NCBI GenBank assembly: GCA_944323245.1 | Contig: CALURT010000010.1 | Location: forward strand, 1 to 64,000 | Source: an uncultured Bacteroidales bacterium | GTDB lineage: Bacteria > Bacteroidota > Bacteroidia > Bacteroidales > UBA932 | Length of the DNA: 64,000 nt | Direction of reading: 5' to 3' | Shown here: positions 25,591 to 53,964 of the stretch, one piece after another | How the letters are laid out: each line of letters starts with the position of its first letter | Position numbering within the stretch: position 1 is the first letter of the stretch | Program-made: the position numbers and the translations under genes | Notes under the pieces: model-generated | Told to the model about the DNA's origin: nothing | Database searches by the model: none | What the model saw: only the letters and a program-made list of their open reading frames with translations

Positions 25591-25638
25591 AATATAACGT
25601 CTGTCCGACGAATTAATGTTGTTCTGTACTGGGGAATC

Positions 25639-40197: not shown

Positions 40198-40200
40198 ACT

Positions 40201-41517
40201 TTATTTCAGTTCGCGGAATTTCTCCACGGAAATTTTCTTCTTTTTAAGGGTGATGACATCCCTGACAGCTGCGACCGTCTTCTGGTCCTCGACCTGTTCG
40301 AGAATACGGCGGCCGTCCTTCTCCTGCGACAGCAGGGACTTGGCATAGGATTCCAGCTGCTCGTCAGGCACATTGTTTATGCCGTACATGGCGAACTGAT
40401 ATGCAGCGAAGCCCTTTGCGCTTGCGAGAAGATCGGCTTCCTCCACCTTGACGGAATATTTGTCCATCAGATAGTTCCTGATCATCTGCCAGCGGTAGTC
40501 CTCGAGGAACATATCGAATTCCTTTTCAATGTCCTCCATGGTGAACTTGCCTTCATTGACGGTATAGATCCACCTTTTGAGGAATCCTTCAGGGAGTGCT
40601 ATGGATGCTTTCTTGCGAAGATAGTCCTTCACGTCCTTGGAAAATCTGAATTCGGATTCCTGCTCATACTCGGCTTTCAGCCTTTCCTCTATCTTGGCAT
40701 CGAATTCCTCTGCGGACTTCACGTTGCCTTCGCCGAATACCTTGTCGAAAGTCTCCTGGGTCATCGGAGCGGAAACGAAAGTCTTCACATTCTTCACCGT
40801 CATCTTGAATACAGGGTCGAGGGAAGCGAGTTCTTCCTTCTTCACTTTCAGCATGGAAGCCCTGTCTGTCTCGTTGGTGAAGGCCTCATTGACGTTCACG
40901 TCAACCGTATCTCCTGCCTTCAGGCCCACAAATGAAGGGCGGACAGCATCAGACACGTTCCTGAGGGCGATATATGTTCCTTCCACCTTGGTTTCTCCCT
41001 GCTCGAAATCCACAATCATGAAGTCCTCTTCCTTGGCGGCCTCGCCTTCTTCAAGGGAACCGTACTGCCTGAGAAGATTGTTCTTCATTTCCTCCTTGGC
41101 GGCATCAGTAATATTAATGGTATAATAAGGCACCTCGTCTTTCTTGTCAAGCTCGAAGTCGATCTTCGGAGAAAGGGCAATGTCGAACTTGAACGTGAAG
41201 TCGTTGCCGTCCTTCCATTCCGTAGCCGGCTGGTTCTCGGCAGGAAGCGGTTCTCCGATGACTTTCAGGTCGTTGTCCTTGATGAATCCGTTCAGGGAAT
41301 CCGCAATGACATCGTTTACGGCATCCACGAGGGCGGACTGGCCGTACATTTTCTCGATGAGCCCCATCGGTACCATACCCTTCCTGAAACCCTTGATTTC
41401 CGCTTTTCTTCTGAAATCGTTCAGTCTGTGTTTCTTCTTCGCCGCATAATCCTCCCCGGCAATCTCAAGAGTCAGCTCGATGTTGAGTTCGTCGATTTTG
41501 TTCTGTGTAATTTTCAT
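40201..41517 (-). CDS. tig: Trigger factor (ribosome-associated chaperone)
   Basis: Trigger factor binds nascent chains at the ribosome exit. The N-terminal ribosome-binding domain carries the signature-like FRRKAEIKGFRKGMVP. A middle PPIase-like domain (about 150-240) and the long C-terminal helical domain follow, for 438 residues. The gene order tig-clpP-clpX is conserved in many bacteria. A consensus promoter lies about 50 bases upstream. Confidence 0.95.
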   Translation of the reverse strand: MKITQNKIDELNIELTLEIAGEDYAAKKKHRLNDFRRKAEIKGFRKGMVPMGLIEKMYGQSALVDAVNDVIADSLNGFIKDNDLKVIGEPLPAENQPATEWKDGNDFTFKFDIALSPKIDFELDKKDEVPYYTINITDAAKEEMKNNLLRQYGSLEEGEAAKEEDFMIVDFEQGETKVEGTYIALRNVSDAVRPSFVGLKAGDTVDVNVNEAFTNETDRASMLKVKKEELASLDPVFKMTVKNVKTFVSAPMTQETFDKVFGEGNVKSAEEFDAKIEERLKAEYEQESEFRFSKDVKDYLRKKASIALPEGFLKRWIYTVNEGKFTMEDIEKEFDMFLEDYRWQMIRNYLMDKYSVKVEEADLLASAKGFAAYQFAMYGINNVPDEQLESYAKSLLSQEKDGRRILEQVEDQKTVAAVRDVITLKKKKISVEKFRELK

Positions 41518-49990: not shown

Positions 49991-52900
49991 TTATAGTCCT
50001 GTACCGGCGGTTCCTGCCGCTCCTGAAGCCTTCAATTCGGCGAGCTTCCCGAGACGCATGGCCGCTCCTTCCGTCACATCGTCACTTCCTCCCGTCTGAG
50101 GGGAATACCCTTGGGCCACGCTTTCAAAGGTGGCTTCAGCCTGCTCCAAGTCTCCCTTTTCCACGAAAGTGTCACCGAGAATAAGGAAGGCCTTTGCAAG
50201 CCAGTATGCGTATTCTGTACCCGAATCCGAGAATGTATATACCTTGTTTTCAACTGCTTCGAAATCGCCCCTGTCGTAGGCGTCCTGAATCACGAGGTAT
50301 GCGGCTTCGGCGCCTTCCTCAGTCTCGGGATGTGCTGCGAGTCCGGACAGAAGGCCGTAGGCTTCCTCCCTCCGCGATGTTGCAAGGTATGACTTCGCCA
50401 TCACATAGTCGGCCTCTCTCCCGAGATCGTCATCGCATCTCTCATCGGATTTCAAGAGGGCGGCATACCTGACGGCCGCCTCGTAATCCTTCGCCCTGTA
50501 AGCGGACCGCATCATCCCTACCGATGCCGTAAACCTGTTGTTTTCCAAAGCGGCCGTCTCATACAGGGAAGAATAGGCATCAAGGGCGTCTGTGTATTTC
50601 TGAAGAGAATACGACAATACAGCGTAATTGAGAGTCGCCGCCTCCACGTACGAACCGGTTCCCGACTCCATTACTTTCAGATAATGGTCGCATGCTGTCT
50701 CCAATTGTCCGAGATTCCTGTACGACTCTGCCATGTAGAATTCCGCCGCAGGCAGCATTTTCCCTTCCGGATATCTGCTTATGTAGGATTCTATCGAAGT
50801 TATGGCCTTCGGATAGTTCTCCGACAGATAATTCTGCTCGGCGGCATTGAATATCATCATCTCCTTTTCATCCTCGCTCTTCAGGGATGATTTTCCTATA
50901 CTTTCAATGTATGCAAGATATTCTTCAGGAGTGTTTTCCGCCTTGTATATCGATTCTATGGCAAGAAGGGCAGATTCGGCATATTCGCCTGCAGGCATGT
51001 CCTCCACCACTTTCCTGTAGCATTGGAGGGCTTTGGCGTTGTCGCTCCTGTTCCTGTAGATCATTCCGAGTTCTATATATGACCTCGCCATGAAAGTGCT
51101 GTCCTTGGCGCCGGCGGCAAGAATGTCGAAACATCCGACTGCAGACTCATCATCCCCTGCCTTGACGTATGAACGCCCGAGTTCGAACATGGTCTCGTCA
51201 TACAGGGCTGCATCGGGAGAGGTTTCCTTCACTGCAGACAAGACCCGGATTTTCTTCGCATTGTCCCCTGCGAGACCGTATGAAATACCCGCCTGATAGC
51301 AGGCATACAGGTCATCCGGATCGGGATAGCCGTTCATGACGGATTCGTATGCTCCGACAGCATCCGCATATTTTTCAAGCATGAACATGCAGTCCCCGTA
51401 TCTCAGGAAAGCCTCCTTGCGGTACCTCGGGGTCTTGGACGACAGATACTCGGAAAACCATTTCGCCGCCGTGGCATAATCCTCTTCCTTGAAATTGCAG
51501 TATGCGATGTTATACAGGATAAGTGACGACTCCTCCATACCGTAAAGGGCGGCCGTATTGTACAGTTCCGTAAATACGGATTCCGATTCGGCGAACATGT
51601 TGCTGCGGTAATATGCTTCCGCAAGCCAGTAGCGTGCCATCTGATTGAAAACCGTCCTCCTGTCGGAATAATAGGCGGCAGCCTTCAGGTACGGGACAGC
51701 GCCGCGGTAAGAACCGTTGCCGATAAGTTCGTGCGCACGAAGATAGTTGGCCTTCATGTAGTTGTCCCTCATGTCATCATCGAGTTCATCTATATTGTCA
51801 TAGGCCTCCACCGCCCCTTCGTAATCCCTGTTGTAAAGGGCTGCCAATGCTATGTAGCTGTATATCCTGTCGCCCTTGCTCCTGTCAGAATAAATCCGCA
51901 GATATTCATGGAACACGGACGAATCGTTGTTCAGGTCGAAAGCAAGTTTCGCATAGTTGAAGTATGCGTCTTCCTTGATTTTCGGATCAAAATCCGACAT
52001 AGACGCATCCTTGAATGCTGCCATCGCAGCGACCTTGTTCCTTGTCTTTATATAACTGTATCCCATGTTGTAGTTGGCGATCTGTCCGAGGGAATCACTT
52101 CTGTCCCTCATCATGGAATAATTGTCTATCGCCCCCTGATAATCCCTCACGGCGAAAAGGACCGAGCCTGCATAGAAGAAATCGGAATACGATTTCGGAG
52201 AGAGCGACCTGTTGCTTTCGTCGAGATATTTCTTGGCGGCTGCGGCGTCTCCGAGCACGAGATTGGCCTCTGAAATCAGGCGCGCCGTACGCGCCTTCTT
52301 GTCGTCGGATACCTTTTCAAGTATGGCCGGTCCGTCGAGCTTCACCCTTTCGTATTCCTCGAGCATGAATCTCGATTCCAGAATGTAAAAGTCAGCTATT
52401 CCGTAGAATCTGTGGTCTTCCGAAGCCTTTTCAAGCCATTCCACCGCCTCTTTGAAGTTCCTCTGTTCGTAGCAGATATAGCCTATCGCATACCTTGCCG
52501 GAGCGGTATAGTCCGAATAGGTGCGGAGTTCGAGATCCTTGAAGCGCTGCAGCGCCCTGTCAAGATTCCTCAACTCGAAATCGCAATAAGCCCTCTTGAA
52601 CAGGAATTCGGGAACCTGTTTCCTGAATACATGATGTCTCGACAATGTCTCGAACAGAGCCGAGGCCCCTTCGAAATCCTTTTCGTCGAAAAGGGCAAGG
52701 GCGTATGCAAGGTTTATCTGAGGTATGAAACCCGAAACCGGATACGATTCCTTGAATCGGCTTACCATGTTTTCATAGCCCGGCAGGCGCAGATGAATGG
52801 CGCACAGCACCCTGTACGCTTCAGCGTCATCGATTCCGTAATCGTCCGACAACGTTGAAAAACGGTCCATTGCCTCACCGTACATTTCTCCCTCATAAAG

Positions 52901-53032
52901 AGCCTTGGCCTCCTCGAAATCCTTGCGCAGCGGCCCGTCCGCCACGGAGCCGCGCGCAGAAGACGGCGTCGGCATCAGTACAACAGCTGCTGCACACAAC
53001 AGAAGCGCAATCGCATACTCCAGCTTCCTCAT
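49991..53032 (-). CDS. Large periplasmic TPR-repeat protein
   Basis: The 1013-residue product begins with a signal peptide (MRKLEYAIALLLCAAAVVLM, then PTPSSARG). It consists almost wholly of tetratricopeptide-type helix pairs from about residue 40 to the end; repeated outlines such as ARYAIGYICYEQ, LYNIAYCNFKEEDYATAAKWFSEYL and ARYWLAEAYYRSNMFAES are visible. TPR arrays bind protein partners. It is coded just upstream of an outer-membrane barrel with a 3-base gap, which suggests a periplasmic partner of that barrel. No enzymatic motif is seen. Confidence 0.85.
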   Translation of the reverse strand: MRKLEYAIALLLCAAAVVLMPTPSSARGSVADGPLRKDFEEAKALYEGEMYGEAMDRFSTLSDDYGIDDAEAYRVLCAIHLRLPGYENMVSRFKESYPVSGFIPQINLAYALALFDEKDFEGASALFETLSRHHVFRKQVPEFLFKRAYCDFELRNLDRALQRFKDLELRTYSDYTAPARYAIGYICYEQRNFKEAVEWLEKASEDHRFYGIADFYILESRFMLEEYERVKLDGPAILEKVSDDKKARTARLISEANLVLGDAAAAKKYLDESNRSLSPKSYSDFFYAGSVLFAVRDYQGAIDNYSMMRDRSDSLGQIANYNMGYSYIKTRNKVAAMAAFKDASMSDFDPKIKEDAYFNYAKLAFDLNNDSSVFHEYLRIYSDRSKGDRIYSYIALAALYNRDYEGAVEAYDNIDELDDDMRDNYMKANYLRAHELIGNGSYRGAVPYLKAAAYYSDRRTVFNQMARYWLAEAYYRSNMFAESESVFTELYNTAALYGMEESSLILYNIAYCNFKEEDYATAAKWFSEYLSSKTPRYRKEAFLRYGDCMFMLEKYADAVGAYESVMNGYPDPDDLYACYQAGISYGLAGDNAKKIRVLSAVKETSPDAALYDETMFELGRSYVKAGDDESAVGCFDILAAGAKDSTFMARSYIELGMIYRNRSDNAKALQCYRKVVEDMPAGEYAESALLAIESIYKAENTPEEYLAYIESIGKSSLKSEDEKEMMIFNAAEQNYLSENYPKAITSIESYISRYPEGKMLPAAEFYMAESYRNLGQLETACDHYLKVMESGTGSYVEAATLNYAVLSYSLQKYTDALDAYSSLYETAALENNRFTASVGMMRSAYRAKDYEAAVRYAALLKSDERCDDDLGREADYVMAKSYLATSRREEAYGLLSGLAAHPETEEGAEAAYLVIQDAYDRGDFEAVENKVYTFSDSGTEYAYWLAKAFLILGDTFVEKGDLEQAEATFESVAQGYSPQTGGSDDVTEGAAMRLGKLAELKASGAAGTAGTGL

Positions 53033-53048
53033 AATAATATTAACGTCA

Positions 53049-53092
53049 GTTCGACGAATTTATGTTGCTCAGGATTAAGGAATTCGTCGAAC
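53049..53092. repeat. 12-bp inverted repeat upstream of the TPR gene
   Basis: GTTCGACGAATT (53049-53060) is exactly complementary to 53081-53092, with a 20-base centre. The left arm overlaps a minus-strand TAAATTCG (53062-53055), a possible -7 box 23 bases before the TPR gene ATG, so the repeat could be an operator. Confidence 0.5.
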
Positions 53093-53138
53093 CGTCGTTA
53101 AGGATTCCTCCGAAATCCACATTTTTTCTTAATCCCCA

Positions 53139-53223
53139 GTCGCTATAGCGACAGCCCCTTTTCAAGGGGCGCCACCCTCCGCCACCTCCCTCGCCGGGAG
53201 GTCCGTCGCAGAACTCGTTCTGC
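53139..53223. repeat. Cluster of four perfect hairpins
   Basis: Four self-complementary units lie in 85 bases: GTCGCTATAGCGAC (53139-53152); GCCCCTT/AAGGGGC (53154-53170); ACCTCCC/GGGAGGT (53184-53202); and GCAGAAC/GTTCTGC (53208-53223). It sits between the divergent TPR and ftsE genes. The order looks like a structured repeat element. No coding frame is seen. Confidence 0.7.
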
Positions 53224-53267
53224 TCCTTAATAATTTATACAAAATTACAAAATTAGACTTTTTTTGC

Positions 53268-53275
53268 TATTTTTG
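53268..53275 (+). promoter_or_regulatory. -7 box immediately before ftsE
   Basis: TATTTTTG is an exact TAnnTTTG match and ends only five bases before the ftsE ATG at 53281. If used, the transcript would begin at or next to the start codon. Confidence 0.5.
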
Positions 53276-53280
53276 TATCC

Positions 53281-53964
53281 ATGGAAGAAAAGAAAGCGTT
53301 GATAAGTTTCTGCAAGGCAGATATTGCCGGAGGGGACAATGTCGTGATTTACGACCTCGACATGGAAGTCTACCCCGGCGATTTCGTATATATTGTCGGC
53401 AAGGTAGGCTCCGGCAAGACCTCAATCATACGGACGATAATAGCCGAAAACAGGTTGGCGGGAGGAAAGGGAGAAGTCTGCGGATACGACCTTACGGCTA
53501 TCAGAGACAGGGACATCCCCTTCCTTAGACGTAAAATGGGAGTGGTGTTCCAGGATTTCCAGCTCCTGATGGACCGAAGCGTGGAGGACAATCTTTCATT
53601 CGTGCTGCAGGCCACCGGATGGAAAAACGACAAGGCTATCTCCGGACGTATCGGCCAGGTGCTGGATGCCGTAGGACTCACGAACAAGGCACACAAGATG
53701 CCCCACCAGCTTTCCGGCGGAGAGCAGCAGCGTGTGGCAATAGCCCGCGCCCTGCTGAACGAGCCGGAAGTCATCATTGCTGACGAACCTACCGGCAATC
53801 TCGACAGCGAGACGGCCGACGGCATCATGATGCTGCTGACGAAAATAAACAGGGAAAGAGGCACTGCGGTAGTCATGGTCACGCACAACAGGGCCTTGTT
53901 CGAAAAATACAAAGGCCGCGTTTTCGAATGCGGCAAGGAAACCTGTCGGGAAAGCCATGAATAA
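53281..53964 (+). CDS. ftsE: Cell-division ATP-binding protein FtsE
   Basis: FtsE is the ABC ATPase that with FtsX activates septal peptidoglycan hydrolysis. Walker A is GKVGSGKT (40-47), the signature is LSGGEQQ (144-150) and Walker B with D-loop is [11 protein letters not shown] (165-175). At 227 residues it has normal length. No ftsX lies nearby. The start at 53281 keeps the N-terminal strand that precedes Walker A. A LolD-type lipoprotein exporter ATPase is an alternative. It overlaps nth by eight bases. Confidence 0.85.

Follow-up and report, generated by a model that had tools for sequence, protein, structure and literature searches.

The short divergent region between a gene for a TPR-repeat protein and an ftsE-like gene in a 64,000-nt stretch of DNA from an uncultured Bacteroidales bacterium (the window) carries a dense row of hairpins. 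It raises the question of what such an array is and whether it serves the cell-division gene beside it. A sequence-only reading had reported four stems of about 7 bp within 85 bases, and had considered a structured RNA, an attenuator-like array and a compact mobile repeat among the explanations. All four stems are present at 53139-53223, and each is a perfect stem of 7 bp. The genes and stems are:

49991-53032, minus strand: gene for a TPR-repeat protein of 1013 aa, its start codon 7 nt from the left end of the repeat described below
53139-53152: hairpin M3 (stem 1 of the sequence-only reading), GTCGCTA/TAGCGAC, core GTCGC-GCGAC; GC/AU compensatory pairs in 9 of 46 copies
53154-53170: hairpin M4 (stem 2), GCCCCTT/AAGGGGC
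53184-53202: hairpin M5 (stem 3), ACCTCCC/GGGAGGT; CG/UA compensatory pairs in 12 of 46 copies
53208-53223: hairpin M6 (stem 4), GCAGAAC/GTTCTGC; one pair found as GC, AU, CG and UA
53281-53964, plus strand: gene for an ftsE-like ABC ATPase; FtsE is the best match in NCBIfam, its 224.7 bits falling short of the equivalog cut-off (264.85)

The claim that this density is far above chance holds: the window contains 53 perfect inverted repeats (arm of at least 7, loop of at most 8), only 53139-53223 has four of them in 85 bp, and 60 first-order Markov shuffles gave a maximum of two. The fold of the 85-nt array as DNA has a z score of -5.3. The absence of a coding frame is likewise borne out, with no ORF of at least 60 aa between the start of the TPR gene (53032) and ftsE (53281). 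The 12-bp inverted repeat noticed just upstream proved to be the core of a hairpin with 21-bp arms (53040-53101), and the four stems form the middle part of an element that comprises six hairpins in the window:

53040-53229 (right limit approximate), plus strand: copy of the repeat, a putative miniature inverted-repeat transposable element (MITE), right end absent; defined by alignment of copies, covariance-model match at E 8e-34
53040-53060, plus strand: left terminal inverted repeat TTAACGTCAGTTCGACGAATT; the IS982-family element at L126 has an identical left end
53040-53101: left-end hairpin M1, arms 53040-53060 and 53081-53101, 21 bp, 90% complementary; nine column pairs with compensatory change among 28 copies
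53102-53118: hairpin M2, GGATTCC/TCC/GAAATCC; one mismatch in the window copy, perfect in other copies
25594-25638, plus strand: solo left end of the element in degenerate form, separated by 3 nt from the start codon of an opposite-strand ORF of 484 aa

The element measures 190 bp in the window and about 236 bp when full, with the module order M1 (left-end hairpin), M2 to M6 (small hairpins) and M7 (right-end palindrome). Every copy that retains its left end begins at the equivalent of 53040 in the alignment. Full copies elsewhere end in ..GGTAGTTCGATGATTnTCAATAAATTGAATTTCATCGAACTCACGTTAA, and the window copy stops at about 53229 without this end. As RNA, the 190-nt element folds far better than dinucleotide shuffles on both strands (z -5.6 for the plus and -4.5 for the minus strand).

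A DNA search of the host genome (2.3 Mb in 41 contigs) found the repeat in about 34 dispersed places, and the covariance model found 27 copies of its body. The left-end pattern with at most three mismatches matches 30 times in this genome, and the reversed control pattern does not match at all. Four copies, namely a minus-strand copy at L015 and those at L035, L036 and L037, share the left end and differ in the middle. In some copies, an insert of 50 bp (..TCGAATGTCCACCGGACATTC..) replaces one arm of M4 or M5. A 50-bp insert, CTGCTCGCTTTCGAATGTCCACCGGACATTCTCATAAACCGCTCCCGAC, takes the place of 6-9 bp of one hairpin arm and occurs at two different stems; its carriers are L022, L023, L027, L028 and L031-L034 in the host genome, as well as L128 and L164. 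Other loci of the genome (L119, L117, L118, L115) also have solo left ends near start codons, similar to the degenerate one in the window. A further sequence at 40200-40223, with six mismatches to the left end, precedes the start codon of an ORF of 225 aa by 2 nt and is possibly an old relic of a left end or a chance resemblance. The flanks of L038 and L011 show another dispersed repeat, GGCCCAAAAGGAGGAATTTCAAGGCTTGCG(C/A)AGATGAGAAAACCGCAGTGTACTG.., beside two copies. A scan for tRNA and tmRNA genes found nothing, and the phage and plasmid collections contain no match to the element.

The ends of the repeat point to its source. A complete IS982-family insertion sequence in a genome of the same genus (L126) has the left end TTAACGTCAGTTCGACGAATT at its positions 532-552, identical over 21 bp to 53040-53060, and its right end, ..TTTTCATCGAATTCACGTTAA, is nearly identical to the right end ..TTTCATCGAACTCACGTTAA of the element. 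Further IS982 copies of the genus bear ends of the TTAACGTGAGTTCGA(T/C)GAA type, and loci with matching ends comprise L122-L126 and L271-L275. The transposase at L124 matches NCBIfam NF033520 (IS982, E 1.3e-72) and Pfam PF13612. An IS982 transposase is thus encoded within elements that bear the same ends, while the MITE body and the IS982 copies have nothing evident in common beyond these ends.

In the host genome, two contig ends (C8:101562-101652 and C7:1-90) share the right end of the element and encode the C-terminus ..KKPMIAVERCPTVDSNQLTLF*; relatives with the C-terminus KKPMIAVERCPTVDSNQLTLF carry the insertion sequences L122-L126. Both contigs break 91 bp inside the apparent autonomous IS982 element. 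As judged from these ends, the autonomous element is probably present in several unassembled copies; that it is represented in the assembly by only the two contig-end stubs counts against an IS982-type origin of the repeat. A second point against it is that, across 121 genomes of the genus, strong MITE matches and intact IS982 genes overlap little. Only G290 clearly has both, probably in part because such insertion sequences break short-read assemblies.

The repeat is short (within 50-600 bp), lacks a transposase gene, has terminal inverted repeats that match an autonomous insertion sequence, and exists in dispersed copies. On the basis of its length, absent coding capacity, copy number and ends, it is with high confidence an IS982-type MITE, which an IS982-type transposase acting in trans would have copied and which has landed in the predicted leader of the TPR gene. 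This kind of element is known; the MITE family itself is new, and its body, a chain of hairpins, is unusual. Among 11 flank pairs, a weak 3-bp target-site duplication signal (p about 0.01, uncorrected) is seen, and no length stands out after correction for 21 tests, which speaks against the MITE.

Short intergenic palindromes are also typical of REP/BIME elements spread by a RAYT (Y1) transposase, and a GTAG stands directly before the right-end palindrome in full copies. This origin is very improbable here: the Y1_Tnp gene (PF01797) is absent from the host genome, whereas it is found in 5 of 14 control genomes, and the element ends match IS982 instead. A RAYT/REP origin was therefore rejected.

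The distribution of the MITE was followed by a covariance model built on M2-M6 and by a pattern scan of a genome collection covering 84,980 species. At E <=0.001, the model matches 40 of the 121 genomes of the genus; in about ten of them, matches fall below 1e-20, with up to 29 copies. The pattern scan finds the same element, ends included, in Candidatus Cryptobacteroides and other uncultured Bacteroidales metagenome-assembled genomes (MAGs). Variants exist as well: G290 and G287 combine the same body with other M1/M2 hairpins and IS982-type ends, and in G256 the body occurs in tandem without such ends. A BLAST search of 40 relatives without a hit had suggested a species-specific element; this idea was dropped when the model and the scan found many species, as BLAST had missed or not sampled the homologues. 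The search for the same order of stems, which the sequence-only reading had recommended, thus yields about 34 places in the host genome and homologues in many Candidatus Cryptobacteroides and other Bacteroidales species. Its compact mobile repeat is the option that prevails, given the many copies, the IS982-type ends and the empty sites in relatives described below. The absence of any second copy and of any conservation was to refute that reading; instead, the element exists in tens of copies and is conserved across species.

A part of the hairpin chain extends beyond the phylum. The block CCCCAGTCGCn(2-6)GCGACAGCCCC, without IS982 ends, is also dispersed as a repeat in genomes of Clostridia and Negativicutes and in some termite-gut MAGs, where it often follows directly after a stop codon and is itself followed by T. 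An even draw over the phylum of the host has the block in 2 of 395 genomes (one being the host genome) and the reversed control pattern in 0. The presence of several copies of this block per genome is not explained by chance; its occurrence in Clostridia may reflect either horizontal spread or parallel origin. The hairpin module CCCCAGTCGC..GCGACAGCCCCCTT..AAGGGGGCC is likewise dispersed in gut Clostridia (L131, L139, L149, L162, L163, L169, L183 and others) as a terminator-like mobile repeat, often situated directly after a stop codon and with a T-run. At L149, two CCCCAGTCGC-type units lie close together as inverted partners.

The clostridial M3-M4 module, in which at least three T follow within 10 nt of the hairpin in 28 of 52 places, and a review that notes terminator-like MITEs (PMC10969869) would allow the array in the window to terminate transcription or to act as an insulator between the two divergent genes. 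This is improbable, as a T-run follows the M4 hairpin in 0 of 22 Bacteroidales copies and a terminator scan gives one weak site, near chance expectation.

The relation of the IS982-type MITE to ftsE becomes apparent from relatives that lack it. Among the genus ftsE loci, 28 of 28 same-genus relatives with a divergent TPR and ftsE-like pair (L242-L269) have no MITE insert. Most of these short empty-site intergenic regions retain two sequences, one of the ACAAATTTA type that faces the TPR gene and one of the TATATTTGT type that faces ftsE. The -7 box of Bacteroidetes has the consensus TAnnTTTG, which the ACAAATTTA type shows when read in the direction of the TPR gene. A promoter scan found no sigma-70 promoters, and the candidate boxes in the window are:

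53240-53255, minus strand: two candidate -7 boxes TAATTTTG (CAAAATTA on the plus strand) facing the TPR gene; they match ACAAATTTA in most empty-site relatives
53267-53277, plus strand: candidate ftsE -7 box TATTTTTG within CTATTTTTGTA; conserved as TATATTTGT-like sequence in relatives and uninterrupted by the MITE

By the Bacteroidetes consensus, these sequences may act as the TPR and ftsE promoters. Both candidates are kept to the right of the element, and the insertion therefore separates the TPR start codon from the candidate TPR promoter and falls in the predicted TPR leader. The four hairpins are no device of ftsE: relatives keep the ftsE promoter-proximal sequence without them, and the element lies upstream, in the divergent leader, so that the proposed attenuator of ftsE is not upheld.

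In the best explanation, the MITE would have entered the short promoter region from which the TPR gene and ftsE diverge. It would have come to stand 7 nt ahead of the TPR start codon, on the downstream side of the candidate TPR promoter, leaving the putative ftsE promoter untouched. The window copy would have lost its right end after insertion, and an IS982-type transposase would have copied the element around the genome in trans. Given the insertion in the predicted leader, the TPR mRNA probably has a 5' leader rich in hairpins, formed by the minus strand of the element; transcription of this leader may in turn affect TPR expression.

The position of other copies is in line with such leaders. 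In codirectional gaps of the host genome, 17 of 19 copies have their left end on the side of the start codon, which places the minus strand in the mRNA. One orientation predominates among the copies, and many lie 2-12 nt ahead of a start codon: the left end is at most 12 nt from an ATG in 14 of 25 copies of the host genome and from a start codon in 9 of 18 copies of other named genomes and species, while the right end is this close in 1 of 25 and 0 of 18, respectively. Among apparently recent copies in G313 and G324, the left end is near a start codon in only 1 of 12, and the bias is therefore not universal. If real, it may reflect which copies are retained rather than a target of insertion.

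The stems themselves are maintained. In 28 copies, the structure beats slid controls in paired cells, both-side changes and covariation score, and, with the exception of the number of extra pair types, every measure is higher than in any of 500 shuffles. A set of 46 copies, drawn from more species, has 97.2% paired cells (37-57% in slid controls), and 71 of its cells are changed on both sides versus 17 in shuffles. The covariance analysis proposed earlier thus reveals clear compensatory changes across copies and species, nearly all of them from Watson-Crick to Watson-Crick. Partial pairs can be read as G-U in 17 types on the minus strand versus 5 on the plus strand (p 0.017, with counts that are not independent events), and this bias hints at a constraint on a minus-strand RNA. 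At the DNA level, palindrome correction by template switching could also produce the paired changes.

These data give some weight to a structured RNA leader or attenuator selected as such, whose minus-strand fold controls downstream translation or stability and which transposition has only spread, as a domesticated mobile leader. The covarying stems, the orientation, the proximity of left ends to start codons and the G-U bias all favour it. It is nevertheless unlikely as the full account, as the neighbouring genes of the copies are unrelated, recent copies in G313 and G324 rarely lie near start codons, the pair-type counts are non-independent, and template switching at palindromes could yield the Watson-Crick changes. 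Of the earlier structured-RNA option, the covarying stems and the leftover mismatches favouring minus-strand wobble stand, whereas Rfam has no match above the gathering score to a known RNA family or riboswitch. A broader idea, in which the element is a mobile hairpin-chain RNA cassette with IS982 ends, fixed in orientation before start codons, selected for its minus-strand fold and exchanging modules between gut Bacteroidales and Clostridia, is slightly less probable still.

The IS982-type MITE accounts for abundant hairpin arrays in a group of gut Bacteroidales that is common and for the most part uncultured. It illustrates that hairpin arrays beside cell-division genes need not regulate those genes. 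With the leader bias and the covarying stems, it becomes possible to test whether many genes receive structured 5' leaders from a MITE at the same time, and the reappearance of one hairpin module in gut Clostridia, which are unrelated, can now be pursued. Within the literature covered, a search with the sequence words of the element returned no paper on it, and topic searches gave only MITE precedents.

BOX elements are modular intergenic repeats composed of stem-loop modules with variable inner modules. In Streptococcus pneumoniae (PMC3049150) they offer a parallel, but their sequence and host are unrelated and they have no tie to IS982. Closer in host are BrickBuilt and other MITEs of Porphyromonas gingivalis, likewise a member of the Bacteroidales, with a repetitive non-coding core and IS-like ends; the BrickBuilt core differs in being a 23-nt tandem minisatellite, and its ends match ISPg1/ISPg9-type elements (PMC4596501). 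The same-genus IS982 insertion sequences (L122-L126, L271-L275) have the same terminal inverted repeats and, unlike the MITE, encode a transposase. Nearest in kind is MITECca01, a MITE of about 240 bp derived from ISCca4 (IS982 family) in Cardinium, a member of the Bacteroidota (PMC9769881). Both elements are about 240 bp long, non-coding and present in many copies, with ends matching an IS982-family insertion sequence of the host lineage; MITECca01 belongs to a different host, and the part of its description considered here mentions no chain of independent hairpins (PMC9769881). In contrast to MITECca01, the present element is common to many species and resides mostly in gene leaders.
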